From an uncultured Aquimarina sp. (GTDB taxonomy: Bacteria > Bacteroidota > Bacteroidia > Flavobacteriales > Flavobacteriaceae): a DNA stretch of 64,000 nt. This document shows, piece after piece, positions 3,845 to 64,000 of this stretch. Numbering within the stretch: position 1 is the first letter of the stretch; every line of letters begins with the position of its first letter. A program made the translations under genes and the position numbers. A model generated the notes under the pieces. The model was not told the DNA's origin, did not search any database, and was given only the letters and a program-made list of their open reading frames with translations. The stretch is taken from positions 62,001 to 126,000 of the forward strand of contig CANMMM010000013.1 of assembly GCA_947498935.1 (NCBI GenBank), read 5' to 3'.

Positions 3845-3932
3845 GGGCGTTACCACAGGGGTCGGGCTATCCGCTATATCTTTTTTGTTTCTTTAGGGAA
3901 ACAAAAAAGGATGCCGCTGCTATCCCTAACGC
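3845..3932 (+). repeat. Dispersed palindromic element, core type A
   Basis: Begins gggcgtt and ends tccctaacgc. The core is a hairpin of ttttttgttt against aaacaaaaaa. It starts 7 bp after the ABC-F stop codon. One of eight copies in the window (others at 9064, 19388, 24580, 34488, 38779, 50734, 55333). Confidence 0.85.
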
Positions 3933-4082
3933 AAATCATTTTTCATCATAGGCAGTACTAATGATTTGTGCAGTTCTTTTACTCCCAAGCTGAATTTTAC
4001 AAGGCTTACCGATGATAGATTACTTTTTGTTAAAAGCATTTTTTATAGAAAATAGTACTGTAAATCCCCATACGTAAACTGT

Positions 4083-24409: not shown

Positions 24410-24579
24410 TATTAAATAGGATTAATTTTAGAAACAAATGTATTGTATTTACACGTAAAAGAATAACGTTTAGCACACATAAGTTGTACGTTTTTTCTAT
24501 AAAAAGTAGATTTCTTCGACGAAAGGTAGGAATTGAGCGACAATGAGCATCTTTTTTTACAAGTAGTGTATGTGGGTTT

Positions 24580-24664
24580 GCGTTAGGGATTGCAGCGGCA
24601 TCCTTTTTTGTTTTTTTCTAACAAAAAAGATACAGCGGAAAGCCCGACCCTTGGGGAACGCCCT
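24580..24664 (-). repeat. Dispersed palindromic element, core type A
   Basis: Begins gcgttaggg and ends ggggaacgccct, with the ttttttgttt / aacaaaaaag hairpin core. 41 bp beyond the 3' end of the ABC ATPase gene. Confidence 0.85.
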
Positions 24665-32113: not shown

Positions 32114-32143
32114 ATTGTTTTTACACTAAATGTAATAATTTCG
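32114..32143 (+). promoter_or_regulatory. Candidate promoter of the riboswitch-btuB transcript
   Basis: attg followed after 18 bp by TAATTTCG, one mismatch from TAnnTTTG. It would start transcription just before the riboswitch. Overlaps no gene. Moderate support only. Confidence 0.35.
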
Positions 32144-32152
32144 CGCAAAATT

Positions 32153-32418
32153 TTGGTTCCTATACCTAAGCTTAGGTATAGGATTAAAAGGGAATTAGGT
32201 GCTCTACTGTCTTTAGTACTAGAGAACTATACTTAGTAGAATACTACTGCATGGAGATGCATAGAGTGTTTTATAAGTAGTAGAAAATCCTAAGCTGTTC
32301 CCGCAACTGTAAGCTAGGCCATAGTAGTATATAACTGCTAGGTACTGATCATTCTTCTAAGACCACTGCTGTATAGCGGGAAGGTGTATGATCAGATGCA
32401 AGCCAGGAGACCTGCCAT
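32153..32418 (+). ncRNA. Cobalamin riboswitch
   Basis: Conserved blocks in order: aaaagggaa (32186-32194), GGTG (32198-32201), aaaatcc (32284-32290), cccgcaactgtaag (32300-32313) and the B12 box agccaggagacctgcc (32401-32416). ttagg and cctaa close the stem around the first pair of blocks. Its aptamer carries about 82 nt between GGTG and aaaatcc, where typical members have almost none. It lies 95 bp before the TonB receptor start. Ligand binding would be expected to turn the receptor gene off. Confidence 0.93.
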
Positions 32419-32512
32419 AATTTGTATAAGTCAAACTTTCGGGATAAAGGTTTGGGTATGGGTAAACTACATACTTTTTTCCGGTAATTACACTAATTAA
32501 GTCATTTAAAAG

Positions 32513-46246: not shown

Positions 46247-48322
46247 ATGAAATTAAAATACTGGGCATATGCTAAAGTGGTTTGTTTTTTGATAGTGTTG
46301 CTATGGGCTGTAAGTTGTACTAAAGAAACAGTGAATCTTAGCGAAGAAACATTAAAATACAATCAGATAGATGCACATTTACGAGACGCTTTAGACGGAA
46401 AGAATACTAAAGAAGATAGATTACAAAGTGTAGACAAGGCACATGTGCTATATCGTACACTATCTGCTACTACTTCTGAAAAATTACAAAAAATAGAAGA
46501 CATCTCAAGTGCATATTATGAGTTGAAGCAATATGAGACCTCTGCTAAAATGGATCGAAAAGCACTTGATTTAGCAAATACGTTAAAGGATTCTATGAAA
46601 ATTGCCAAGTTTTACGGATACTTTGGGATTTATTATCGTGATAAAGAAAAATTAGACAGTGCCTATATAAATTTCCATAAAGCAGATAAAATTTATAGTA
46701 ATTTAGAGCGTAGTACTACCTATGAACCACAAGTCTATGCATTTGAACATGGAAAAATATTGATCGATTTAGCCAATCTTTCTAGGAAGGTAAAGGACTA
46801 CAGTAAAAGTGAGGATTTAACAGTAAGAGCTATAAAAAAGTTTGAGCTATCTGAAGATTATTCATATATTCCTCTATCATATACAAATTTAGGGACAGTA
46901 GCTAAGGAATTAGAACGGTATCGAGATGCAGTGTCTTATTACAAAAAAGCTATAGAACATTCTAAAAAAATCTCTAAAGACACCTTATTCGGAGTGTTAG
47001 GCAATAATAACATTGGCACCGTTTATAAATCCCAACAAAAATATGCCAAAGCCATTGAATACTATAACAAGGCATTAAAATACAAGCCTTTTTTAAACAA
47101 GCGACCTAAAAAATATGCCCGCCTCTTGGATAATCTAGGCTATGTACAGTTTTTGGCAAATCCCGACGATCCAGAAGCCTTTGCCTTGTTCCAAAAAGCC
47201 TATGCGATTAGAGATAGTCTATATGATGTGGTAGGATTGTCTACGAATAACCTCCACCTGGCAGAATACTATAAGACTATGGGCAATGATAGCTTAGCCA
47301 TTGTATACGGTATCAAAGCCCAAGAGGCGGCTTCGGCTACGAATAATAATGTAGAGTTGCTACAGGCCTATGATATCCTTTCTGAGGTATCCGAGAGTGA
47401 GCAGGGACTGGCGTATGCGCAGCAGTATATTAACCTCAATGACAGTCTGGTAAAAATGGAGCGGGCGTATGTAAATAAATTTGCACGGATCGAGTTCGAA
47501 ACGGAAGAAAAAGTGCAAAAAATAGAAAAAATCAGTAGAGAAAACCAGATACTGATCATCACCGTATTGGGGATTACGGTACTATCACTACTAGGATATA
47601 TCATCTTTAGGCAGCAACAGCGCAATAAGGAGCTGCTATTCGAGCAGAAGCAGCAGCAAGCCAATCAAGAGATTTATCGCCTGCTACTCAGCCAACAAAC
47701 CAAATTAGAAGAGGGGCGTAAGATGGAGCAGCAACGGATGTCCGAGGAGCTACACGATGGGGTGCTAGGGCGTTTATTCGGGGTGCGATTGAGCTTAGAT
47801 GGGATCAATCAGCGGGTTAATGATGGGTATACCGAGACACGTACCAAATACATAGAGGAACTAAAATCCATCGAACGCGAAATACGACTCATCTCGCACG
47901 ATCTGGGTACAGAAACGCTGTCTACAGACGTGGCGTATGTAGATGTGGTAGAGAACCTGATCTTTGACCTCTGCGAGGCGCATAAACTACAATTCGAGTT
48001 CGAGAGTGATGAGGCAATTGATTGGGACATAATAGATAACCAGAAAAAAGTAAACCTATTCCGTATCGTACAGGAGTCCTTACAGAACATTTTTAAGCAT
48101 GCACAGGCCAAAAACATAAAAATTAGTTTCGATTATGTGGATGATACGATAAATCTTACTATTTTAGATGATGGAATAGGATTTAAAGCCACCAAGGTTA
48201 AAAAAGGTATTGGGCTAAAAAACATTACCTCTAGGGTACGACAGATGAACGGTGTTGTAGATTTTATAAGCAATAATGAAGAAATACCTGGTACCAAAGT
48301 CACGGTGGGCGTTCCGATATAA
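46247..48322 (+). CDS. TPR-repeat sensor histidine kinase (NarX/DegS-type)
   Basis: 691 residues. The N-terminus has a lipobox-like AVSC near residue 23. Tetratricopeptide repeats run from about 60 to 420 (for example SYTNLGTVAKELERYRDAVSYYKKA). One membrane helix (about 440-462, ILIITVLGITVLSLLGYIIF) and a coiled coil lead to a HisKA_3 domain with phospho-acceptor H503 in EELHDGVLG. The HATPase has FRIVQESLQN, DDGIGF and GIGLKNI. It senses in the periplasm and should phosphorylate the regulator encoded 76 bp downstream. Confidence 0.9.
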   Translation: MKLKYWAYAKVVCFLIVLLWAVSCTKETVNLSEETLKYNQIDAHLRDALDGKNTKEDRLQSVDKAHVLYRTLSATTSEKLQKIEDISSAYYELKQYETSAKMDRKALDLANTLKDSMKIAKFYGYFGIYYRDKEKLDSAYINFHKADKIYSNLERSTTYEPQVYAFEHGKILIDLANLSRKVKDYSKSEDLTVRAIKKFELSEDYSYIPLSYTNLGTVAKELERYRDAVSYYKKAIEHSKKISKDTLFGVLGNNNIGTVYKSQQKYAKAIEYYNKALKYKPFLNKRPKKYARLLDNLGYVQFLANPDDPEAFALFQKAYAIRDSLYDVVGLSTNNLHLAEYYKTMGNDSLAIVYGIKAQEAASATNNNVELLQAYDILSEVSESEQGLAYAQQYINLNDSLVKMERAYVNKFARIEFETEEKVQKIEKISRENQILIITVLGITVLSLLGYIIFRQQQRNKELLFEQKQQQANQEIYRLLLSQQTKLEEGRKMEQQRMSEELHDGVLGRLFGVRLSLDGINQRVNDGYTETRTKYIEELKSIEREIRLISHDLGTETLSTDVAYVDVVENLIFDLCEAHKLQFEFESDEAIDWDIIDNQKKVNLFRIVQESLQNIFKHAQAKNIKISFDYVDDTINLTILDDGIGFKATKVKKGIGLKNITSRVRQMNGVVDFISNNEEIPGTKVTVGVPI

Positions 48323-48422
48323 TGAGTAACCAATTAACTATATTACACACTGTTGAGTAGCTATAAGACTACATACCCCATTTGTAGCTATTGGATAGGT
48401 GGATACAAACAAACAGATAACA

Positions 48423-49094
48423 ATGAAAAAAAAGCTAAAGGTTCTTATGATTGATGATCATCCAATGATTATCGAGGGATACAAGAACACACTATTAGGA
48501 GAGAATCAAAAGGAGTATCAGATCAAAATAGATATTGCTTCTAATTGTGATGATGCCTATGATTATATCCAGAAATCTTCTAAGTCTACACCGTATGACA
48601 TGCTTTTTGTGGATATAAAGTTACCACCTTCTAGTGATGGAAAAATTACTTCTGGAGAGGATCTAGCCAAGCATGCCAAGCAGTTATTGCCTAAGGCAAA
48701 GGTGATTATCCTAACGATGCATAGAGAGGATCACAGAATCCATAACATCCTAAAGAATATCAATCCTTCTGGATTTTTGATCAAAAGTGATCTAACGTCT
48801 AGCGAGCTGTTATTAGCCTTTAATAACATCGTAAGCGGTACGCCGTATTACAGTGCTACGGTGAATAATCACTTTAGAAAAATGATGACCAATAATTTCT
48901 CTCTAGACGAAAAAAATCTAAAAATACTCTATCACCTGTCTAGAGGTGTAAAAACTAAAAACCTACCGAATTACGTAAGTCTATCCCTGAGTGCGATCGA
49001 GAAAAGAAAAAATCAGATCAAAGAGATGTTTTCTATCGCCAAGGCGGATGACCAACGTCTATTAGAAGAAGCACGTAAAAGAGGGTTTGTATAA
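48423..49094 (+). CDS. NarL/FixJ-type response regulator with divergent output domain
   Basis: 223 residues from the ATG at 48423, whose product starts MKKKLKVLMIDDHPM; the frame from 48399 adds eight residues. Receiver domain with acidic DDHP pocket, D64 in FVDIKLPP and T/K positions in ILTMHRED and FLIKSD. The C-terminal helix-turn-helix (LKILYHLSRGVKTKNLPNYVSLSLSAIEKRKNQI) is LuxR-like but diverged: the usual A-x-x-L-x-x-S-x-x-T-V pattern is replaced by LPNYVSLSLSAIEKR. It pairs with the upstream kinase. Confidence 0.87.
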   Translation: MKKKLKVLMIDDHPMIIEGYKNTLLGENQKEYQIKIDIASNCDDAYDYIQKSSKSTPYDMLFVDIKLPPSSDGKITSGEDLAKHAKQLLPKAKVIILTMHREDHRIHNILKNINPSGFLIKSDLTSSELLLAFNNIVSGTPYYSATVNNHFRKMMTNNFSLDEKNLKILYHLSRGVKTKNLPNYVSLSLSAIEKRKNQIKEMFSIAKADDQRLLEEARKRGFV

Positions 49095-50446: not shown

Positions 50447-50586
50447 GAACCCTACAAATGTACAACTTTGGCGAGCTAACACGAGTAGGGTTTGGATAAC
50501 GATCCACTGCTACGAAACAGTAATGATCATTATATGTATTTGTTTATAGCATATACCTCTTAATGTATATAAGAGGTTGTTTTTTA
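50447..50586 (+). ncRNA. Candidate structured RNA (copy 1) with terminator
   Basis: Stem gaaccctac (50447-50455) pairs with gtagggttt (50485-50493) around a loop containing TGTACAACTTTGGCGAGCTA (50459-50478). GGATAACGAT follows (50494-50503). An intrinsic terminator (acctctta / taagaggt then tgtttttt, 50555-50586) lies 50 nt on. The second copy at 56422 keeps loop and tail but has a different stem sequence that still pairs. No protein gene overlaps. Riboswitch or small RNA; not one I can name. Confidence 0.6.
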
Positions 50587-50733
50587 GTTCATTAAGAGAG
50601 GAGATGATTGTATAAACCACTCTAATGGGTAAATATATGGTATTCTGCGTTTTATTGGGTGCAAATCATCGTGTTTAACAAAAATATTAAGAAAATATAC
50701 AACTGTTACGTAGGGGAATTTGTCTTCTTTTTT

Positions 50734-50820
50734 GCGTTAGGGATAGTAGTGGAAATCCCACAGCCCGACGCAGGAGGAGCGAGGAATTGTAGCGGATAGC
50801 CCGACCCTTGGGTAACGCCC
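50734..50820 (-). repeat. Dispersed palindromic element, core type B
   Basis: Begins gcgttaggg and ends gggtaacgccc; core with cccacagcccgacg and gcgaggaattg. 117 bp upstream of the sulfatase start, the only copy lying nearer a 5' than a 3' gene end. Confidence 0.85.
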
Positions 50821-50936
50821 TAAAAAATACCCTACAGCTGGGGCTAAGACAGACTGCTGTATTGGGTATATATCCTACACACAAATAGTCAGATAGGTAA
50901 CCAAATAACTAATAATTAGATAAATACCAATGTACT

Positions 50937-53900
50937 ATGAAACCAATTTTTAGAATGGCGAGTGTACTCCTTATGTTTTTAGGAGCGAGTACTATAGCTT
51001 ATGCCCAGACCCCGAACCCCAACATCGTAGTGATTATCGCAGATGATATGGGATGGTCTCAAACCAGTGCTACTGCCACTAGTTTAAACAACCCGAGTGA
51101 TTTTTATGAGACGCCTGTGATTGCTTCTTTAGCAGCGCAGGGGATTGCGTTTCCCAATGGATATGTAAATGGTGCGAATTGTGCACCTACGCGGGCTGCG
51201 ATTCTGAGCGGACAATGGGCATCGAGGCCAGATAACAATGTATTTGCCGTAAATGGACTGAACAGAGGAGGCTCTAATACATTACTCGTAGGGCCGTCGC
51301 AGGGGTTGTCTAATGGAGAGGATGAGATTCCTGCCAGTGCCATTACGATTGCAGAAACGATAAAAACAGCGGGCTATACCACGGCACATTTTGGGAAATA
51401 CCACTCTGGGGGGAGTATGAATAATGCGCCTACGGATCAGGGATTCGATGTGAATTTTGGAGGTGCTTCGGACGGTGCTCCAGGATCGTATTTTGCCGCC
51501 TTGTCGGGTGGTAATTGGGAGTTTCACCCCAGAATTGGCCCTGAATTAGATATGTATGCAGCGCCCTACACCGCAGCAGAATCCATAGCGCTGGTAGGAG
51601 ACAACTCTATAGAGGGCACGGCTAAGCATGTGACGGATGCGATGGGGGATGCGGCAATCGATTTTATGAATGCCAATAACGCATCGCCCTTTTTTATGCA
51701 TTTTAGTAACTATGCCATCCACGGTCCGTGGGGACAGGCCAATGCCAGACCCGATTTATATGCGAAGTATGTGGCTAAGAATGCGAGTAACCCGAGTCAG
51801 ATCGGTCATGATAATGTAGCGCAGGCTGCCATCCTAGAGGGAATGGATCAGACCATCGGTCGTATTATTACCTATTTACAAAACACGCCTGATCCGCGTA
51901 ATCCGGGGAATATGCTATCTGCTAATACCTTGGTGTATTTTATATCAGATAATGGAGGGGCTAATGGTCCAGAGGATAACGCACCACTAAAAGGGATGAA
52001 GGGCGAATATACAGAAGGAGGGATCCGATCTGTGACTTTTGCATGGTCTGAGGGCTTATTGGCCAATGCCGGAACGCCTAATATGACGCCCGTAGTAGCC
52101 TTTGACCTATATCCTACGGTGATCGATATCGCAGGAGGTACATTGCCTAGTGGCTATGCTATCGATGGGGTAAGCCAGTGGCCATTGCTCACAGGGGCTG
52201 CGACCACACTGAATAGAGAGGCGCTGTATTGGCATTTTCCAGGCTATATCGCGAATGCACAGCGCGATCAACGCCCAGTGTCTATTATACGCAAGGGGGA
52301 TTATAAATTGATTCATTATTACGAAACGGCCTCCTATGCATTGTACAACTTGGCGACAGATATAGGAGAGGATACGAATCTATTAGCCGGTACTCCGGAT
52401 ACTACGATACTTACCATCGCTAATGATATGAGTACCTTGCTTAGAGCGCATCTGATCGATGTAGCAGCACCGCTACCTACCTACAGAAGCAGTGGGGCTA
52501 CGGTACCGCTACCAGAAATTATAGAAGTTACCACACCTCCTGTAGACATGAGTTGTGTGTCGCCTACGACCTATGCAGCGTTGTGGAATTTTGATACAGC
52601 GACACTGACCAATGATTATTCTGCTAATGGGCAAAATCCGATTAGCATCGTAGGTGCAGTATCCTATGATATTGTAGATTATAAAGAGGGTGACCAATCG
52701 GTGGTGTTTGATGGGAGTACGAAGATCCAATACAGTCAAAACCCAGCACCATTCCTCACGGCGCCTACAGCAGCGCGTAGTATAGGGATGTGGATCAAGC
52801 CTGCGGCGCTTTCGGGGATACAAAACTTGTTTGAAGAAGGCGGAGGACTAGTAGGAGTAGTCATCAGACTGAATGGGGGTACGGTAGAAACCATCGTACG
52901 AAATAGCAGCACAGTATCCGATAACCTATCTACAGCCTTTCCGACCGATGGCGATTGGCATCATATTGCCTTGGTATACGATGGAGCGAGTACCACACAG
53001 ACCCTCTATCTAGATGGAGTAGTGGCGGCGAGTAGTACTGCGGCACCTGCCAGTATTCCTACTCATATAGGAGCAGGAGGGATTGCAGGGGTACAGAAAA
53101 AAGATAGTTTTGGAGCGACAGCAGATCATTTTTATACGGGTAAGATGGATGCCGTGGCGGTGTATGAATCGGTACTAACTGCGGCAGAGGTAGCCACTGT
53201 AGCGTGTATAGAAACCACCCCACCGCCACCAGCCTGTGTATACAGCCTTATAAATTCCGAAGATTTCGAAACAGGATGGGGAATCTGGGTCGATGGTGGT
53301 TCTGATGCTAGAAGAAATATAGGCGATGCAGCCTATGCTAATTCTGGGGATTACTGCATCCGACTGAGAGATAATACGGATACTTCTGTCATGACTACGA
53401 CGGCTATTGATGCTTCGGTATACGAAGAAATATCGGTAGATTTTTCGTATTATTGCCGTAGTATGGATAACAGTGCAGAGGATTTCTGGTTACAGCTATC
53501 TACCGATGGTGGTACGAGCTTTAGCACCGTAGAAGAATGGAATCTAAATGATGAGTTCGTAAACGATCAGCGTTTTAATGATCAGGTGGTGATTAATGGG
53601 CCTTTTAGTGCCGATACCCGCCTTCGGTTCCGAGCGGATGCTTCGGGCAATCAGGATTGGGTATATATCGATGATGTAGTGATCAATGGGTGTGCAGTAG
53701 CAACACGCCAAGCGCCCGCAGTAACCACCACAGTGATCCAACAGTCTGTAGCAGCACCTGCAGCTACACCAGCACGTACCGTAGTGATGTATCCAAACCC
53801 ATTTAGCACGCAAATCCGTATAGCGATAGAAGGCGACACCTATACCAAAGCCACAGTACAGGTGTTTAACCTACTCGGGCAGCTCGTATTTGAGCAAGCA

Positions 53901-54014
53901 TACGATCAGCAAGGAATCATCATAATCGCTAGCGATCGTATGGAGGGAGGACATTATTTTGTAAAAACTACGATTGATCAGCAGCAATTTACACAGGTAT
54001 TGATCAAGATGTAA
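50937..54014 (+). CDS. Type I sulfatase with LamG-like domain and T9SS sorting domain
   Basis: 1,025 residues. Signal peptide to IAYAQ (about 24). Sulfatase domain about 26-520: metal-binding D36-D37 in IADDMGW and the formylglycine motif C82-A-P-T-R in NCAPTRAAILSG. Further sites are H-F-G-K-Y-H near 155 and ISDNGGANGP near 340. A concanavalin-like LamG domain (about 555-735) follows, with the usual VGMWIKP/WHHIALVYDG/TLYLDGV strands. A jelly-roll domain (about 745-905) comes next, then a T9SS sorting domain from about 945 (MYPNPFSTQIRIAIEG). Cys-type, so it needs maturation; the FGE gene downstream is the likely enzyme. Secreted to the cell surface or medium, presumably acting on a sulfated polysaccharide. 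Confidence 0.93.
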   Translation: MKPIFRMASVLLMFLGASTIAYAQTPNPNIVVIIADDMGWSQTSATATSLNNPSDFYETPVIASLAAQGIAFPNGYVNGANCAPTRAAILSGQWASRPDNNVFAVNGLNRGGSNTLLVGPSQGLSNGEDEIPASAITIAETIKTAGYTTAHFGKYHSGGSMNNAPTDQGFDVNFGGASDGAPGSYFAALSGGNWEFHPRIGPELDMYAAPYTAAESIALVGDNSIEGTAKHVTDAMGDAAIDFMNANNASPFFMHFSNYAIHGPWGQANARPDLYAKYVAKNASNPSQIGHDNVAQAAILEGMDQTIGRIITYLQNTPDPRNPGNMLSANTLVYFISDNGGANGPEDNAPLKGMKGEYTEGGIRSVTFAWSEGLLANAGTPNMTPVVAFDLYPTVIDIAGGTLPSGYAIDGVSQWPLLTGAATTLNREALYWHFPGYIANAQRDQRPVSIIRKGDYKLIHYYETASYALYNLATDIGEDTNLLAGTPDTTILTIANDMSTLLRAHLIDVAAPLPTYRSSGATVPLPEIIEVTTPPVDMSCVSPTTYAALWNFDTATLTNDYSANGQNPISIVGAVSYDIVDYKEGDQSVVFDGSTKIQYSQNPAPFLTAPTAARSIGMWIKPAALSGIQNLFEEGGGLVGVVIRLNGGTVETIVRNSSTVSDNLSTAFPTDGDWHHIALVYDGASTTQTLYLDGVVAASSTAAPASIPTHIGAGGIAGVQKKDSFGATADHFYTGKMDAVAVYESVLTAAEVATVACIETTPPPPACVYSLINSEDFETGWGIWVDGGSDARRNIGDAAYANSGDYCIRLRDNTDTSVMTTTAIDASVYEEISVDFSYYCRSMDNSAEDFWLQLSTDGGTSFSTVEEWNLNDEFVNDQRFNDQVVINGPFSADTRLRFRADASGNQDWVYIDDVVINGCAVATRQAPAVTTTVIQQSVAAPAATPARTVVMYPNPFSTQIRIAIEGDTYTKATVQVFNLLGQLVFEQAYDQQGIIIIASDRMEGGHYFVKTTIDQQQFTQVLIKM

Positions 54015-54119
54015 AAACTATAAAGATACTACATGCGCAGCATCTATAGTCTCAGTGGTTTGTGTTTAGATGTTTTATACCATATGTAGTAACTGCATGG
54101 ATTACATGCAGTGATTGCC

Positions 54120-54164
54120 ATCCAATGAGTAGATAATATACATTATTTGCTCATTGGATTTTTT
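54120..54164 (+). terminator. Terminator after the sulfatase gene
   Basis: atccaatgag / ctcattggat stem followed by tttttt, 106 bp after the stop. Separates the sulfatase from the FGE gene. Confidence 0.82.
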
Positions 54165-54274
54165 ATTGTTTTATGCCGTATAAGCGTTAAAAAAGCTGTA
54201 ATTTTCCTGTATAGTTTAGTACTTATATAAGGAGTAGGCTCACTGCTCATCATAGTACTATAGCATCTGTATAT

Positions 54275-55327
54275 ATGACACATAGAAACCAATTTATAAA
54301 AGTATATAGCCTATTGTGCCTAAGTGTTTTATGCATAGTTAGTGCCTGTAAACAACAGTCCAATCCCGCTACTACAGCTGCTGTAGCGCCCGTAATTCCA
54401 GAGGGAATGGTGTGGGTGCCCAAAGGGAGTTTTTACCAAGGAGCGGCTGCTACCGATACACTAGCCATGCAGCACGAAAAACCCAGACATGCCGTACTGA
54501 TCGATAGTTTTCTGATCGATAAGACCGAGGTTACCAATGCCCAGTTTCAGCAATTCGTAGCCGCTACAGGCTATATCACCCTAGCAGAGCGAGCAGTAGA
54601 TTGGGAATCGCTACGGGAGCAAGTACCCCCAGGTACGCCCAAGCCACACGATTCGCTATTACAGCCAGGGTCTTTGATTTTTAGAGAACGTACAGAGGGC
54701 GTAGCCAATTTATACGATTTTTCGCAGTGGTGGTCGTGGAAAATAGGCGCCAATTGGAAACATCCGCAAGGGCCTACCAGTACCTTAGAGGGTAAGGCGC
54801 AGCACCCTGTAGTACATATCGCCTATGAAGACGCATTGGCCTATTGTCGATGGGCAGGAAGAACCCTACCCACAGAAGCACAATGGGAATATGCAGCCAG
54901 AGCCGGTAGTATCGATGCGGTATATACTTGGGGGGATGATCCCCATGTACTCAGCCAGTCAGCCAATACATATACAGGGATGTTTCCTGTACAGAATGAT
55001 CAAACAGATGGATATAGCGGTACTGCTCCTGTAGCCTCTTATCCCCCCAATGCATTGGGAATCTATGATATGGCGGGCAATGTATGGGAGTGGACCCAAG
55101 ACTGGTATGTGTCTACTCATTATCAGACAGTAGCTAGCCAGCAAGTAACCAATCCACAGGGAGCTCCACGAAATCCGCATCAGCCCCCAGAAAAAGTAAT
55201 CAAAGGAGGTTCTTTTTTATGCAATGCTACCTATTGTGCTAGTTATCGCATCACTGCCAGAATGGGCAATAGCCTAGATTCATCCTCAGAGCATAAAGGG
55301 TTTAGAACTGTGATCAATATCCAATAG
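54275..55327 (+). CDS. Formylglycine-generating enzyme (lipoprotein, SUMF1 type)
   Basis: 350 residues. Lipobox VSAC (Cys25). The FGE fold spans residues 43-348. It includes MVWVPKGSFYQG, DKTEVTNAQFQQFV, HPVVHIAYEDALAYCRWAGRTLPTEA-type core, WEYAARAG and MAGNVWEWTQDW. The catalytic copper/cysteine pair C316 and C321 in FLCNATYCASYR matches human SUMF1 (C336/C341), so this is a true FGE rather than an inactive paralogue. It converts the Cys of CxPxR in sulfatases to formylglycine, in the periplasm here because of the lipid anchor. Next to the sulfatase gene 260 bp upstream. Gene symbol not assigned. Confidence 0.92.
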   Translation: MTHRNQFIKVYSLLCLSVLCIVSACKQQSNPATTAAVAPVIPEGMVWVPKGSFYQGAAATDTLAMQHEKPRHAVLIDSFLIDKTEVTNAQFQQFVAATGYITLAERAVDWESLREQVPPGTPKPHDSLLQPGSLIFRERTEGVANLYDFSQWWSWKIGANWKHPQGPTSTLEGKAQHPVVHIAYEDALAYCRWAGRTLPTEAQWEYAARAGSIDAVYTWGDDPHVLSQSANTYTGMFPVQNDQTDGYSGTAPVASYPPNALGIYDMAGNVWEWTQDWYVSTHYQTVASQQVTNPQGAPRNPHQPPEKVIKGGSFLCNATYCASYRITARMGNSLDSSSEHKGFRTVINIQ

Positions 55328-55332
55328 TAGTT

Positions 55333-55433
55333 GGGCGTTCCCCACTCCTAAGGTCGTGGGGCGGGCTATCCGCTGTATCTTTTTTGTTTTTTTAAAGGAA
55401 AACAAAAAAGGATGCCGCTACTATCCCTAACGC
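55333..55433 (+). repeat. Dispersed palindromic element, core type A (longer left arm)
   Basis: Arms gggcgttcccc and tatccctaacgc; core ttttttgttt / aaacaaaaaagg. It is 101 bp, with extra sequence (actcctaaggtcgtgg) in the left arm. Starts 5 bp after the FGE stop codon. Confidence 0.85.
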
Positions 55434-55476
55434 AGAAGAAAAGGCGTATAGCGTACACAATATGCTTTACAGGAGA

Positions 55477-55587
55477 TAAAATACAGTGATTTTTGTTGCA
55501 TAGCAGCACTAGGAAACTCAAAAAACACAAAATTTGGGTGCAAAAGATCATTTTTATAGCCAATTACAGCAAGTGTACACCATTTTA
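55477..55587 (+). repeat. Right-half copy of the MITE-like element
   Basis: Carries aaatacagtga, gttgcatagcagc, ctcaaaaa, caaaatttgggtgcaaaagatca, tatagccaatt and aagtgtacaccattt in the order of the intact copies; the left end is missing. Confidence 0.7.
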
Positions 55588-56867
55588 GTATAAAGCATTA
55601 CACAAAACCAATGTACAAATGTGCATTTTTAGGATATATATAAGTAGGAGTGCATCATGCATCAATACTGATTATGCATATGGCCACAAAACAGTAATTT
55701 AGATAAAATACTAGTACTATTTTATCTTGTAATAGTTCTTAGTTGGGTAATCTTTTTTTTTATTAGTAGTTGGTTAACAATTATTTATGTTAAAAAGCGA
55801 CATGTATTTGTAAGTTTTTTCTTTCTTTTTTACTGGATTTTGTCCCCCTTTTTATGCGTATACGATTCCAAACAGATCTTTCTTCGGCCTTATACGTATA
55901 CCAGGAAATATGAATTAGTTGCTATTAAGGATATTTTACTAATTATTTGTTTTTGATGATAAATATATGGTGAATTTGTCTTTTTTGAGTGTTTTATTGA
56001 ATAATTCTTAGTTTTTTCTGTTTTTTTGATAGGTGATCTTTAATTTGTTTACACACAGCATGTTATGGTTTTAACGTATTTATTTTGAGTACTAAGAGTA
56101 TTCAAAATCAATCATTTATAGCTAAATTTATATTGTTAAAACAAATCAAATAATTTAGAAACATAATAACCGGCTTATAGAAAAAACTACTTTAGACTTC
56201 CTTTATACTACCCCCTTTTTAATATAGTCTTTAGTGATGAAACAAGATTGTCTTGTAGTCATATAATTGATTGCATGTTGGCAATATGTTACGTTGCTTT
56301 TTAATAAACCTAGTAACGCATTTGTTTTTTTAATAATCCTTAGGTCTATGATAGTATGTAGAATGGTCATACTACCATAGATGCAAACAAAGTTTAAACG
56401 CAAACAAGCTATACATAAAATTTCAAGTACTGTACAACTTTGGCGAGCTAGCATTACTTGAGAATAGGATAACGATAAACTAAACGATTCAATCATTATG
56501 ATTAAATATGTACCAGTTTTCTTATGGGAAAGATGTAGAGGAATACTAGCGTGTATACGAATATATATGCTATCATGCTATTTCTTAAGACCTATAAGTA
56601 CCGATAGTACTGTAGCTTCTACAGACTATGGTAGCAAACAAAATATAGATACTCGTAGGGATACGCGTATTTTTTTTCCTTTCATACGTAGTACGCTTCT
56701 AACGATTCATACCTATTTATATTTATCTATATATGGTATTGCTCATACTCATGAAGTACCTATACCTAGGTGCTTAAATTCTACCTAAAGATGTGTAACA
56801 TACCGAATACACAAAGACAGTTACCCAAGTAAAAAGTTAGCATACAATATCAAATCTTTTATAAAAG
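55588..56867. other. 1.3-kb intergenic region upstream of the giant gene
   Basis: Two facing frames at 56203-56496 (minus) and 56498-56788 (plus) have no recognisable domain, and I do not call them. The structured RNA motif copy 2 sits at 56422-56473. Otherwise AT-rich. Confidence 0.5.
56422..56473 (+). ncRNA. Candidate structured RNA (copy 2)
   Basis: Stem ttcaagta (56422-56429) pairs with tacttgagaa (56455-56464). The loop is identical to copy 1 over 20 nt (TGTACAACTTTGGCGAGCTA, 56431-56450) and GGATAACGAT follows (56467-56476). The differing but still pairing stems indicate selection on RNA structure. No terminator is obvious downstream. It lies 390 bp before the giant repeat protein gene. 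Confidence 0.6.
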
Positions 56868-59800
56868 ATGGATACAAAATATAATTTATTCAAGCAGTTG
56901 CTTATGAAAATTTATACAAATTTCTCAGTTATTTTTAGAAAGATAGCAGGAGTGTCCAAAAACTCACACAGACAAGCAGAAACGATTACGCATAGTTTTT
57001 TAGGAAAGAAAATCACTATGATCAACAGGGTTTCCTGTATGATGCGTATGTTTTTTATGCTGTTTGTAGGTGTACTGGCGTACGGACAATCTAGTTTAAC
57101 ACCTTTTGATTGTTCGAGTACATTTTATCAAGTAATAAATGGTGAGCTCAGAGCTTATTTTGCGGCAGATGGTACGTATGGCGATCCACTACATAGTTTA
57201 GAAAACTACAATGCAGGCGCATACAATCCTATAGATAATTATTTGTATGCAGTTTTCGAAGTGGGAACTACGGATTCTAATCACTTAATACGTATCGGTA
57301 ATGATGGTGCGATAGAAGATTTAGGTGAGATAGATGTCACAGGTCCTGGTGGTACTTCGTTTATTGCAGCGGATTTTGATTTAGCAGGGGGGTATTATCT
57401 GCGTAGTGGTGCCAATCTAAGGCGTATCGATAATGTAAATACGCTGACTCCCGATCCTACTAGAAGTATTACTACTACATTTTTAAACAATGCCTTTTTC
57501 GGAGGACCAGCAGCTGCTACTATGAATGCAGCTGATATTGTATATATAAATGGTGCTTTTTATGGCACCAATGATGGGGCTTCCTTATATATATGGGATA
57601 TCAATACGCCTTCTAGAACCATTGTACCTCTGACAGGATTACCCGTTAGTGGTGCGGTATATGGAGCAAGTTATACAGATGATCAAGACAGGTTATACGT
57701 TTCGTTTAATGACGGAGGACTCTATCTAATAGAAAATTATACAACTTCACCGACTACACGTTTTGTAGCCAATACCGTTAATACAGCTCGTAATGACGGT
57801 TTTTCGTGTCCTACAGCACCGTCTACCATCGATCAGGATGAGGATACATTATTAGATATCTTCGATTTAGATTTAGATGGTGATGGAATTCCTAATATCG
57901 ATGAAGCGCCGTCGGATCCTTTTGCAGATCTAGATGCAGATGGAGTAGTAGCGTATTTAGATGATAATGATACGACAGGGGCGATAGGGAATCAAGACGA
58001 AATGGTACAACCTACATTCGATACAGATGGCGATGGTGTGCCTGATTTCTTTGATTTAGACAGTGATAATGATGGGATTTATGATGTGGTAGAAGCAGGA
58101 CACGGGATTGCCCATACCGATGGAAGAATCACAGACCAAGAAACCAATTCTGGAGTAAATGGATTGTATGATAGTTTAGAAAATAACGATAGTGTAACTG
58201 CTACGATTACCTATACGATAGCTGATACAGATGCTACAGGCGCACCCAATTTTCAATCTACAGATAGTGATGGTGATGGGTGTAGCGATGCTATAGAAGG
58301 AGCAGGAAGTTTTACAGCAGCAGATACAGATGGATCAGATAGCTTAGGCGATACGGTTAATGAAGATGGAGTACCTACCATAGCAGGAAGCCCGCAGGCT
58401 ACTACTGCTACCGTTACCGATGCAGCGGATGATAGTGCCTGTGATACCGTGGTATCCAGTCTGACACCGTATAATTGTCCGAGTGTTTTTTACCAAATTA
58501 TAGCAGGAGAGCTTAAAACCTATGACCCTGTTACAGGAGAATATTCAGCACCGATAGCGACTACAGAATTATACAACGCTACAGGGTACAACCGTATCGA
58601 TAACTATGTGTATGCTATAGGAAAAGGAGGGAATAGTAGCCCTATCAATAAACATTTATTACGTATAGGAGCCGATGGTATTTTCGAAGATCTCGGAGCG
58701 ATTTCAAGCTTTGGAAATGGAGGCATCTCAGGAGATGTAGACGATGCCGATAACCTATGGATCAATATCGGTCAGGAATATCATAAAATAGAAAATGTAT
58801 CTACACTACCAGTAGGGGGTGCACCTGCATTGATACCTGTAACCTTTACAGGGGCTGGAGGAAGTACCCTGCCTAATAGTACCGTAAATGATGTCGTGTT
58901 CATCAATGGAAGTTTATACGGCGTTAATAATAATGGAGAAGTAAATAGTTGGAACCTAACAACACTAGAAAAAACGTTAGTAGGTGGCCTTACCACGCCT
59001 ACTGCTACCAATTACGGAGCAGCGTATACAGATGCATCCGATAGGTTATATGTATCTTATAATGATGGAGGGCTGTACCTTATAGAAGATTACACGACTA
59101 ATACGCCTATTGCATTTGCATTAAGCTCTACGGCTATTACTACTAGTAATGATGGCTTTTCATGCCCTACAGCACCATCTCCTATCGATCAAGACAAGGA
59201 TTTAATCCTGAATCCAGTAGATTTAGATTTAGATGGAGATGGAATAACCAATATCGATGAATCGCCTTCCAATCCATTTGCCGATTTAGATGGCGATAGA
59301 GTATTCGCATACCTCGATGATGATGAGGCTACAGGAGCGATAGGGAATCAAGATGGAAAAGTAGAAGCCGCATTTGATACAGATGGGGATGGTATTCCTG
59401 ATTTCTTTGACCTAGATAGTGATAATGATGGGATTTACGATGCGCTAGAAGCAGGACACAACCAGGCGATTACAGCAGGAACGATTACAGGACAAGGTAC
59501 AGGTTCTGGAGCTAATGGACTATTCGATGCTCTAGAAACAGCCGATACACCTACCACAGGTATTACATATACCATTACAGATACAGATGCCACTGCAGGG
59601 TTTGATTTTCAAGCTACAGATAGTGATGGTGATGGCTGTAGTGATGCTAATGAAGCCTATGCAGATAGTAATGCAGATGGTAGCGATGGAGGTATTTATA
59701 ATCCTTCTAATACAGCTACAGAGCCTTTGAGTATAGCCGATGGCACGATTGATCAAGACGGATTGGTAGCAGCAGCAGCCTATGACACAGGCGCTATAGC

Positions 59801-62800
59801 AGCAGTAACTGATGCTACAGCAATAACCGCTTGCGGAGATAGTGATGGCGTAGATGATGCCTTAGAAAATGCAGCACCTAATGGAGGAGATGGTAATAAT
59901 GATGGAATTCCAGATGCAGAACAATCCAATGTAGCATCGATACCCGATTATTTTGGTAAAGGATATGTAACCCTAGAAGTAGTAGTGACAGGTGATTGTG
60001 CTAAGATTACATCTATGACGCCTGTGGCAGAAGCCGAATTAGCCTCGCAGGATGCTGAGTATGAATACCCAGTAGGTTTAATGAATTTTACACTAGAATG
60101 TGAGCTGGCAGGACAAACAGCAGATGTTACCATCTATTGGCATAATATAAGTGCCATACAAACGCTTAGAAAATACGGATCATCAGCACCAGGAGCCAAT
60201 GATGCAGAATACGATAATTTTTCGAGTTTCTCTAGGTTTGAGGTGATCAATGGAGTGCAAGTACCTACCACATCATATAGTATTACTGATGGACAAATTG
60301 GTGATGAGAGTAGTGCCCCTAGAATTATTATAGATCCAGTAGGACCTGGTACAAGTTCTGACGATTCCGACAATGATGGTATTTTTGATGATGTAGATCT
60401 AGATGATGATAATGATGGAATTCTAGATTGTGACGAGAACTATTGTGGAGAGACACAATTTATATCTCCAATTGGAGGAGGAAATCCAGATCCAGCTACT
60501 TTATGTGGTACACCAGGACAGGCATTATCGTATCCGCTTATTGTACCCCAGAGTGATCAAATCGTAACGACTACCATAACGCATCAAGCAGGAACTTGTG
60601 CATATTCAAATTTTGACCCATGGGGGACGACGCCAGGAAGCTTTACATTCGATGATATTTCTTTTGTAGCCCCTTCTGGGCCAGATCCTTCACCTAGATA
60701 TTTTGATATTGTAGGCACTATCAATGGAAAACAAATAGAATTGGATTTTGGCGTAGCAGCTAATACGTTTGATGATACGACATCAAAATTTGCCTACATC
60801 ATAGCCATTGCAGGAACAGGAGGAGGAACGGAGTGTGTAGAAATTACCTCTTCTCAGACCCTAGAAGTAGTAGGAAATCAAGATGCTTTCAATACAGGGA
60901 TATACCAATTATTAGATGGGAATCCGACAACCACTTTTGGAACTACTGGAACCGTAATCCGATCTAATACAGGGCCGGGAGCTGATGGATATACGGTTTA
61001 TACCTTTGATAGCAGTGTATCGAGTATTACGCTTTCATACAGCACTTGTGGTCTTAATGATCCACATGGAATGATATGGGGAATGGTAAAATCGATCAAG
61101 GCAGATGATGATGGAGATGGTATCGAAAATGCATTTGACTTAGACAGTGATAATGATGGATGTCCTGATTATGTAGAAGGAGCAGCTAGCTTTTTAGAAG
61201 CAATAGATGGACGCCCCGCTGTAGGAAACCTATCTGATGGGAATGGATCAGTAGTTGTAACCAATTTAGGAAATACAGTAGATACGACTCTAGGGAGTAG
61301 TAGTTATGGTGTTCCTACCATTGCAGGAGCTGGACAAGCCATAGGAAATAGCCAAAATGCAAGTGCCACGATCGATTGTAGAGATACAGACTCCGATGGC
61401 ATACCCGATACAGTAGATTTAGATGATGATAATGATGGGATTTTAGATAGTGCAGAAAATTCCTGTGGTACAGGAGGGTTTTATAGTCCGTCCTATAATT
61501 TTAATAGTGGTTCAGGAACTACCAATGATTTAGCATCTACTACAGATTCAGGTTCTTTTGTCACTACTGCGAGTCCACTGACTATTGGAGCGGGACTAAC
61601 AGCAGTACCAAGAGATGCAGCCAATTCACAAGCATATTTATTATTAGACAATGTAGATCAACCAGATTTAGCATCGGCCATAGCCAATAACGATTATGTA
61701 GAATTTAATTTTACGACCAATGCTAGTTTTACAGAAGGGATCGTTAATTCTTTCTCAGAAAACCCTCAGGTATTAGGTTCCTTACCGGTACAGCAGTATT
61801 TCCATAAAATAGCTATTGCGATATCCGAAGATAGTTTTGCGACACCGGGTGACATCTTAAAACAAGATTATATCATCGGCAGAACTCCGGTAGGTTTTGT
61901 ATTTACACCAGTAGAAAACAAATATTTACTACAGCAGAATACGACGTACACCGTTCGTGTCTATCACTATGATGCACCTGCGGCAGCTACAAATTTGGCA
62001 TCATTTGATGATTTTGGTTTCCAAATAGATAATTGCCCAGTAACAGCCGATTTTGATGGAGACGGTGTGTTTAATGAGCTGGATTTAGATAGTGATAATG
62101 ATGGAGTTTATGATGTCGTAGAAGCAGGAGGAACTGATGCGAATGATGATGGACGTGCAGATGATTTAGATACAGACCCTACCAATGATAATGGGATTCC
62201 AGATTCTGCCAATGGAGGTGCAGGGATCAGTACACCGACCGATACAGGTAGTGATGGTAGCTTTGATTACTTGAATTTAGACAGTGATGGTGATGGCTGT
62301 AGTGATGCTAATGAAGCCTACAATACACGTATTGCTGATGGAGGTGATTCGGGAGTGTTTGGGCTAGACCCCGCGACTGTAGATCCACTAACAGGATTAG
62401 TAACTTCTGGAAGTCCGAGTTATGCAGACCCTGTAGATGCAGACAGTACAGGAGGACCAGACTATCAGCAAGTAGGCGGGCCAGATGCGGATGGCGATGG
62501 TGTCATGGATGCCTGTGATCCTACCTTTGACGATAATGATGGCGATGGTATCGGTGATGCGGCAGATTTAGATGATGATAATGATGGTATTTTAGACAGT
62601 GTAGAATGTCCAGTACCGAATGCTACAGGAACAGGAACACAGCTAGGATGGTTCTATAATGATTCGCCACAAACGTTTACACCCAGTATTTTTAATGCAG
62701 AAATAGCCAGCGCTACCAATACAGTGATCGGACCTGGGGTCGTAGGAACCTTAACAACTGCTCCTACAGAAACCTTACGAATTGCCAATGCTGATGAAAC

Positions 62801-64000
62801 CAGTTTTGCAGCAGCAAAAACAAGTAATGATTACGTAGAACAGTCCTTTACTACTGCTGCGGCAGTATCTGGGAATAAATATTTGAATGAATTCACCTTA
62901 TGGGGAGAAGCAGCTGGAGTAGGAGATGGTTCTGCACCAACTTTATTCCCATACCAGTTTGCATTAGAGGTTTCTACAGATCCTACATTCGCTACCAATG
63001 TTACGGTATTGTTAGAAGATCAATTAATGACGATGCCAGCTGCAAGAGGGAATATTAGTTTCCCTATACCTAACCCTCTTCTCTTAGAGGCTAGTACTAC
63101 CTATTATTTTAGAGCATATATTTATAATGTAGCTTCTTCTAGTGGCGTGATTTCTTTTGATGATCAGCGTTATAGAGCTACTATTTATGATGGACCATTA
63201 GTATGTGATAATGATGGCGATGGATTGTCTAATGAATTGGATTTAGACAGTGATAATGACGGTATTTATGATGTAGTAGAAGCAGGCGGAACTGATGCAG
63301 ATAATGATGGTAGAGCCGATGATACAGATGGTGATTCCGCGAATGATAATGGAGTGCCTAATAGTGCTAATGGAGGAGCAGGGATTAGTGCACCGACCGA
63401 TACAGGCAGTGATGGTAGCTTTGATTACCTCACTTTAGATAGTGATGGGGATGGCTGTAGCGATGCCAATGAAGCCTATAATAGTACTACAGCAGATGGC
63501 GGTGATACAGGTGTGTTTGGTACTGATCCAGCAACCGTAGATCCATTGACAGGTTTAGTTACTTCGGGCAGCCCTAGTTATGCAGATCCAGTAGATACCG
63601 ATGCTACAGGAGGCTTAGATTTTCAGCAAGTAGGTCCTGATACTGATGCTGATGGTATCATGGATGCTTGTGATCCTACAAGTGATGATAACGATGGTGA
63701 TGGAGTAGGAGATGTTGCAGATTTAGATGATGATAATGACGGTATATTAGATACAATAGAGTGTACATTAAACCCTATTGATTTTACAGGCTTAAATTTT
63801 GGGCAAACAGGCGGAGTGTTCAATACGGTAAATAGTTATTTAACCGCTACGATTACAACAAATGCTACGAATGCAGCAGATGGTGGTGGATTAAGAGCTA
63901 GAGATAATGAAATTTTAGAATTAAGAGATGTATCACCAGATTTAATAGGTACTATCGCAAGCGCAGAAATAGATTTTAGTGAGCGAACGGATGTACAAAT
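56868..64000 (+). CDS. Giant secreted Ca-binding (TSP3-repeat) surface protein, 3' end beyond window
   Basis: More than 2,377 codons, open to the window end; the frame was checked at several points. The N-terminus is a long basic extension (about 50 residues, [12 protein letters not shown]...) before a normal signal core ([16 protein letters not shown]); an internal ATG at 57018 would give a short signal. Two related beta-propeller-like domains (DUF6923-like; about 57093-57830 and 58465-59190) each end in [10 protein letters not shown]. Then come many thrombospondin type 3 Ca-binding repeats (DxDxDG, such as [15 protein letters not shown] and [11 protein letters not shown]) between beta-rich inserts. 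Likely exported by T9SS; sorting domain not in view. It could be an adhesin or a biofilm or gliding-related protein. Confidence 0.88.
62049..63762 (+). repeat. Tandem ~1.16-kb internal repeat in the giant gene
   Basis: The block of about 530 bp starting at gatttagatagtgataatgatgg (62082) recurs at 63240, a spacing of 1,158 bp, with only scattered changes. It encodes [55 protein letters not shown] and [11 protein letters not shown]. The sequence between the blocks is dissimilar. Confidence 0.8.

Follow-up and report, generated by a model that had tools for sequence, protein, structure and literature searches.

A conserved hairpin element upstream of giant surface-protein and sulfatase genes in Aquimarina and other Flavobacteriaceae

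In a 64,000-nucleotide stretch of the genome of an uncultured Aquimarina sp. (contig CANMMM010000013.1, positions 62,001 to 126,000; hereafter the window), a hairpin of about 45 nucleotides followed by a fixed tail, GAATAACGAT, occurs twice, once before a sulfatase gene and once before the gene of a giant repeat protein. We call this element D1. The comparison of 147 distinct copies supports the reading, put forward in a preliminary description of the window, that D1 is conserved as an RNA structure, and it brought out features which that description did not contain: an inner helix, a leader open reading frame (ORF), a second box in two groups of copies, and copies without a long ORF. We tentatively favor the view that D1 is a cis-acting leader RNA giving conditional read-through into the giant genes, and that leader-ORF translation is one means of setting this read-through.

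The two window copies lie where they had been placed before (Table 1). With up to three mismatches allowed, the 20-mer that they share is found at two places in the window (shuffle expectation 0.01) and at two in the whole 4.77 Mb assembly, both exact. Copy 1 folds with -15.9 kcal/mol (z -2.3); copy 2 adopts the same fold with an unremarkable energy (z -0.6). Folding energy by itself is weak evidence for D1, and the case therefore rests on comparison, that is, on the 147 copies and on covariation above both of its controls.

D1 is made of a 7-pair outer stem, an inner stem TTGT/ACAA separated from it by two unpaired bases per side, and an apex with the near-invariant letters A-Y-UUUG..GAG. In an alignment made with MAFFT and not fitted to the structure (A2), 16 cells carry two-sided changes, compared with 5.2 ± 1.8 after shuffling, and none of 500 shuffles reached 16; the number of pairs with such changes, 6, is less striking (25 of 500 shuffles). 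When 81 copies were aligned to the model, a procedure that favors the structure, two-sided changes were seen in 10 of the 11 base pairs and in 110 cells (30.5 ± 4.1 shuffled), with pairing in 89.1% of cells and at most 49.6% in slid controls; the number of pairs with two-sided change was not striking in this set (132 of 500 shuffles). RNAalifold predicted both stems unprompted from another alignment, A6. The earlier claim that RNA structure, and not DNA, is conserved is borne out by covariation exceeding both the shuffles and the slid controls. The pairing within the apex is uncertain, CUU/GAG in the broad set and UGG/CCA in a group of stand-alone copies. Its letters also vary by lineage, with GGAGAG in three copies of genus g195, GUAGAG in three of G203 and GGCGAG in most Aquimarina copies; a lineage-specific partner would yield such differences, and recent duplication would do so likewise. 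A variable stem beneath a fixed apex and beside a fixed tail suggests that something reads the apex.

A search for the core with one mismatch gave matches in 38 of 66 genomes of the same genus. A covariance model, R1, built from 20 of 31 listed sequences (near-duplicates, L003, L005, L019 and L031, which have an extra base, and also L006 and L014 were omitted), matched 41 of the 66 at E ≤0.1, in agreement with the expectation of further copies in relatives. R1 also matched 10 of 397 genomes sampled from the family Flavobacteriaceae; two of these belong to the same genus and one (G157) has a plain hairpin without the core, leaving seven, in five other genera. A second model, R2, was built from 81 sequences and, like A6, drew on 60 of 133 sources picked for diversity. 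It matched 3 out of 346 genomes sampled across the order and, in a sample of 296 across the phylum, 2; every one of these lies within the family, and the listings do not display the share of sampled genomes from outside it. In two draws with that share fully listed, D1 was found in 0 of 23 genomes of other families of the order and in 0 of 24 genomes outside the family from the phylum, 46 different genomes altogether. Filters were stricter in searches spanning more than 40 genomes, and weak copies may have escaped. A scan of contigs for the exact core returned 15 stretches (6 from Aquimarina, 9 from others) and a scan of viral sequences returned 1; the nine non-Aquimarina stretches and the viral one, lacking stem and tail, were removed before alignment, as were L028, which matched in coding sequence, and L012, truncated at the motif. 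The 161 matches in 132 loci and the window reduce to the 147 distinct copies, among which three R1 matches without a recognizable core (L253, L255 and L256), probably spurious, were kept.

A search of Rfam 15 gave four matches in the window, none of them on D1 at the gathering cut-off. Five loci that contain D1 gave nothing on it at E ≤1, and another five loci gave only small signal recognition particle (SRP) RNA at E ≤0.1, in line with the earlier failure to recognize a known RNA family. The preliminary description had named a match in Rfam, a lack of copies in relatives and stems that do not covary as outcomes that would count against it, and none of the three occurred.

In 83 of the 144 copies with enough downstream DNA, a frame of 1000 codons or more begins no further than 2.6 kb downstream, as opposed to 0 of 133 cases on the reverse strand upstream, which served as the control; the copies are not independent, many being orthologous. 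The proposed association with genes for large proteins holds over the 144 copies, with the correction that window copy 2 first meets a frame of 96 codons. Simple sequence tests sort the copies by what they precede, which is a frame of 1000 codons or more for 70, a sulfatase gene for 13 and a gene for a TrmH-like methyltransferase (a label assigned by reading) for 27; the other 37 lie elsewhere. Five or more DxDxDG repeats are present in 60 of the 70 giants, and 66 of them extend past the fetched DNA, so their secretion tails are mostly out of view. Two further giants were tested; one carries a lectin domain together with an immunoglobulin-like domain, and the second gave no Pfam match. In the window, the genes after D1 encode a sulfatase carrying a type IX sorting tail, a protein like the formylglycine-generating enzyme and a giant protein in which the DUF6923 repeat occurs twice. 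The giant surface proteins encoded after D1 are probably type IX-secreted. Some giant frames (L095, L096, L097, L098, L099, L100, L101) are preceded by 2–4 tandem copies of D1 spaced 0.2–0.8 kb apart.

Most copies are followed closely by a start codon. An ATG lies 5–30 nucleotides after D1 in 131 of the 147 copies, and 86 of these 131 ATGs (86/147 copies) open at least 55 codons, compared with 2 of 209 control ATGs, taken as the first in matched slots upstream of D1. The resulting leader ORFs have 65–186 codons. Their start is narrowly placed, 11–20 nucleotides after D1 in 74 of the 78 frames listed, and AACCATT and AATCATT are the commonest contexts before the ATG (47 of 78). In four loci (L097, L105, L106, L228) the ATG opens the giant frame directly. 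A list of 25 TrmH copies includes 24 with a qualifying ORF, 23 of which contain the second box described below; the ATG-to-box distance takes five values from 102 to 120, all multiples of 3 (23/23). The leader peptide is weakly conserved by the ratio of nonsynonymous to synonymous differences (pN/pS) in the TrmH group (0.87) and in one giant group (0.76), and better conserved in two other groups (0.58 and 0.26), where it is a small protein with one hydrophobic stretch, ending in ...YSFIAYSFLE.SS. The leader protein family of P0001 (Table 1) gave no Pfam match and one NCBIfam match far under the cut-off (18.9 of 80 bits); 12 homologs were found at E ≤0.01, all five with the organism shown being Aquimarina, and no viral relative was found.

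In the TrmH and stand-alone groups a box like AATATAGnAA follows D1, then ACGG..CCGT and then T-rich sequence (D2); by eye we take the D2 of the two groups to be one element. Hidden Markov models (HMMs) of D2 find members of their own group, and the TrmH model also finds L208 (E 2e-6) and L200 (E 3.9e-7). In L180, L182 and L210 the letters ACGG..CCGT persist through a stretch whose codons are read in another frame, which is then restored (judged by eye); this hints that the nucleic acid is constrained in addition to the frame. At the giant loci the box is visible by eye in several copies, window copy 2 among them, where the D2 HMM match (E 4.4) is within background and the hairpin (56647-56677, -8.0 kcal/mol) has a stem mismatch that leaves it unlisted by a standard terminator scan. 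Both window copies have a terminator-like hairpin between D1 and the large gene, the one after copy 1 being as previously described. Over 99 dereplicated contexts, 16 terminator-like hairpins lie 150–200 nucleotides after D1, compared with 2.1 ± 1.7 in shuffled sequence (maximum 7 in 60 shuffles), and the adjoining bins are mildly enriched too. TrmH loci (L197, L174, L194, L145) also carry, after the leader ORF, a strongly conserved CATTTTGAC[AG]ATGTGTTTAC ... CCTCCCG ... TTAGGGGTAATTTC ... GGGAGG ... TTTT, the first half of which is repeated further down in some loci; an Rfam scan of L197, L174 and L108 gave small SRP RNA alone.

In one group of 20 aligned copies, from about 20 genomes, D1 is followed by no long frame. 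D1 is nearly invariant in these stand-alone copies, the middle is variable, D2 closes most of them and the next gene varies between genomes. For 15 of them the alignment stability is -13.3, as opposed to -0.7 ± 1.3 for column-shuffled alignments (0/100), and it comes from D1 and the D2 hairpin only. From its sequence, each looks like a separate short RNA.

We infer the following course of events. Once transcribed, the D1 hairpin would sit in the 5' leader of the giant surface-protein genes and of the secreted sulfatase gene, where a trans-acting factor, be it a protein, RNA polymerase or the ribosome, would read the fixed apex (A-Y-UUUGG-C-GAG) and tail. Its action on D1, whether direct or exerted through leader-ORF translation, would be the switch that decides if transcription gets past the hairpin in the leader and enters a gene 3 to >8 kb long. 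A short RNA would come from the stand-alone copies and could titrate this factor.

Several observations weigh against conditional read-through. A long leader ORF is absent from 61 of the 147 copies, window copy 1 included. HMM matches of D2 between groups (best E 0.0083) are no better than those in control flanks (best 0.0007), and the D2 hairpin of the TrmH group has no consensus fold; the standing of conditional read-through is slightly lowered by the lack of HMM support for D2 outside its own groups. The 150–200 nucleotide bin holds only 12 hairpins in 51 dereplicated giant-gene contexts and none in 4 sulfatase or 26 other contexts. Flanks upstream of D1 are terminator-rich as well (0.20, 0.09 shuffled; downstream 0.29, 0.11 shuffled), and in the membrane-protein leaders the terminator signal overlaps conserved codons. 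The apex is not uniform within every genome, GGAGAG occurring beside GGCGAG in G016 and G061. Finally, no candidate factor emerged from a check for co-occurrence with D1 in which NusG was the only gene considered.

Pure translational control ranks second, and we consider it unlikely. Here D1, a hairpin about 40 nucleotides before the start codon, would be bound by an activator or repressor of initiation and control translation of the leader ORF only, the giant gene following by translational coupling, with no role for terminators. The narrow ATG distance, the recurrent AA(C/T)CATT before the ATG and the keeping of the frame all agree with this. However, the sulfatase and stand-alone copies keep D1 without a leader ORF, and the terminator-like sites peak at one distance.

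Somewhat less likely again is a bolder form of the read-through proposal, in which a new system of processive antitermination or polarity relief would be recruited at D1. The system would let RNA polymerase and ribosomes finish giant genes of at least 6 kb with no dedicated NusG paralog, would be coupled to leader-ORF translation across a built-in terminator and would be tuned by the stand-alone decoy RNA. Antitermination of the ops/RfaH or UpxY type uses a specialized NusG paralog, and the ops sequence is GGCGGTAG; EAR and put antiterminator RNAs act on RNA polymerase without a dedicated protein. The ops sequence occurs in none of the 81 aligned copies, the D1 apex being TTTGGCGAGC with few variants. 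A dedicated NusG paralog can be set aside as the general partner, since 12 of the 41 genus genomes with D1 (G004, G006, G011, G028, G029, G032, G037, G046, G049, G050, G058, G061) have a single PF02357 match (E ≤0.001), presumably the housekeeping NusG, in a search that very divergent paralogs could escape; G062 has a single match too, and its D1 match is dubious.

That D1 is the base-pairing target of a small RNA, in trans or in cis, we regard as improbable. It would explain why conservation lies in the apex and not in the stem, and in 8 of the 13 sulfatase leaders printed (L102, L198, L203-L206, L217, L219) CTCCCAAAG, about 190 nucleotides downstream, could form a long-range pairing with the apex CTTTGGCGAG, one base bulged. 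This cis complement is missing from the other five, the window included, and within the window's own genome D1 itself is the only place with an exact complement of the core 12-mer. Across the 66 genus genomes this complement is likewise mostly at D1, which argues against a conserved antisense partner; it lies elsewhere in a minority of places, several about 13–14 kb away from where nusG matches on that contig and perhaps within one conserved gene.

A metabolite riboswitch, or a self-contained attenuator with mutually exclusive folds, seems very doubtful: a conserved structured leader upstream of terminator-like sites would suit it, but the apex is small, the target genes are not metabolic, Rfam offers no match, and D1 and the copy 1 terminator fold side by side, which, there being no competition for pairing, argues against a classical riboswitch. 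Equally hard to credit is that D1 works at the DNA level, as a recombination, cassette or mobile-element hairpin in single-stranded form; stem covariation cannot separate RNA from single-stranded DNA, and three tandem copies lie within 0.7–1.2 kb in L095 and L096, but the place beside TrmH (27 copies) and sulfatase (13 copies) genes is kept across genomes, the strand is fixed relative to the downstream gene, and the consensus core has no exact match in viral contigs. The last result, with a single viral stretch devoid of stem and tail, also speaks against a phage origin, as does the finding of no viral relative for P0001. Integron attC sites have conserved stem ends (the R and L boxes) and a variable middle; D1, with its variable stem and conserved apex, is the reverse.

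Covarying, on the sense strand and upstream of genes, D1 has the structural attributes of a cis-regulatory leader RNA as far as these can be judged from alignments. In position and layout it resembles leader attenuators and antitermination elements, and on the tests made it cannot be filed under any named family. EAR of Bacillus eps operons, put of phage HK022, the LoaP hairpin and ops/JUMPstart with RfaH share with it a short conserved leader element, very long genes or operons and terminator-like sites further down; D1 differs from them in sequence and structure, in the lack of an Rfam match and in the 12 of 41 genomes without a dedicated NusG paralog. As in translation-coupled attenuators of the trp and tna type, a leader ORF overlaps a terminator-like hairpin. 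Of such features, the kept frame of the TrmH group and the enrichment of terminator-like sites are present, but there is no consensus hairpin fold there and many copies have neither; moreover, unlike those attenuators, D1 has long leaders, a peptide little conserved in two groups and a separate hairpin preceding the ORF. With the Csr/Rsm hairpins and their decoy RNAs D1 shares one loop common to many mRNAs and a stand-alone RNA, whereas its loop is another one, there is as a rule one hairpin per leader, and a D1-binding protein is only hypothetical. Flavo-1 RNA (RF01705) is also a structured RNA of Flavobacteria, with three copies above the cut-off in the window, at 24577-24653 (+), 3856-3937 (-) and 55355-55442 (-), but it adjoins D1 rather than covering it and does not match it. 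A fourth, sub-threshold Flavo-1 lies near 50729-50810 (L001 1771-1852), between D1 copy 1 and the sulfatase gene. An open-access literature search, judged from titles and the openings of abstracts, yielded nothing on a D1-like element.

Just upstream of D1 copy 1 (46247-49094, +) are genes for a tetratricopeptide repeat (TPR) histidine kinase and a NarL-like response regulator. The same pair lies upstream of D1 in L102, L103, L109, L110 and L112, and it may control D1 loci. The window also contains a cobalamin riboswitch (32137-32433, +; 93.5 bits). The features around the two D1 copies are collected in Table 1.

Table 1. Features at the two D1 copies of the window, and the leader protein P0001 (positions are those of the window unless a locus is given).
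Feature	Position	Strand	Remarks
D1 copy 1: hairpin (outer and inner stems, conserved apex) and its tail	50447..50503	+	R1 80.2 bits
Parts of copy 1	arms 50447-50455 / 50485-50493; shared 20-mer 50459-50478; tail 50494-50503		tail GGATAACGAT
Intrinsic-terminator-like hairpin and T-run	50555..50585	+	downstream of copy 1; hairpin 50555-50577, then TGTTTTTT
Sulfatase with laminin-G-like domain and type IX secretion tail (Por_Secre_tail)	50937..54014	+	downstream of copy 1
D1 copy 2	56421..56476	+	R1 61.9 bits
Parts of copy 2	arms 56421-56429 / 56455-56463; 20-mer 56431-56450; tail 56467-56476		
Leader ORF, 96 codons	56498..56788	+	downstream of copy 2; start context CAATCATTATG
D2 candidate, box and terminator-like hairpin with T-run	56641..56677	+	inside leader ORF; box AAATATAG
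Giant repeat protein, two DUF6923 repeats	56868..63998	+	downstream of copy 2; continues beyond window; start possibly further in
P0001 and relatives, small protein family with one hydrophobic stretch	L223:7482-7982	-	between D1 and giant genes

D1 would be an RNA family absent from Rfam 15, and its stand-alone form may act in trans. The genes of giant surface proteins are among the costliest in any bacterium, and D1 may decide their expression. One RNA element common to dozens of giant-protein loci would offer a direct handle on their control in Flavobacteria.

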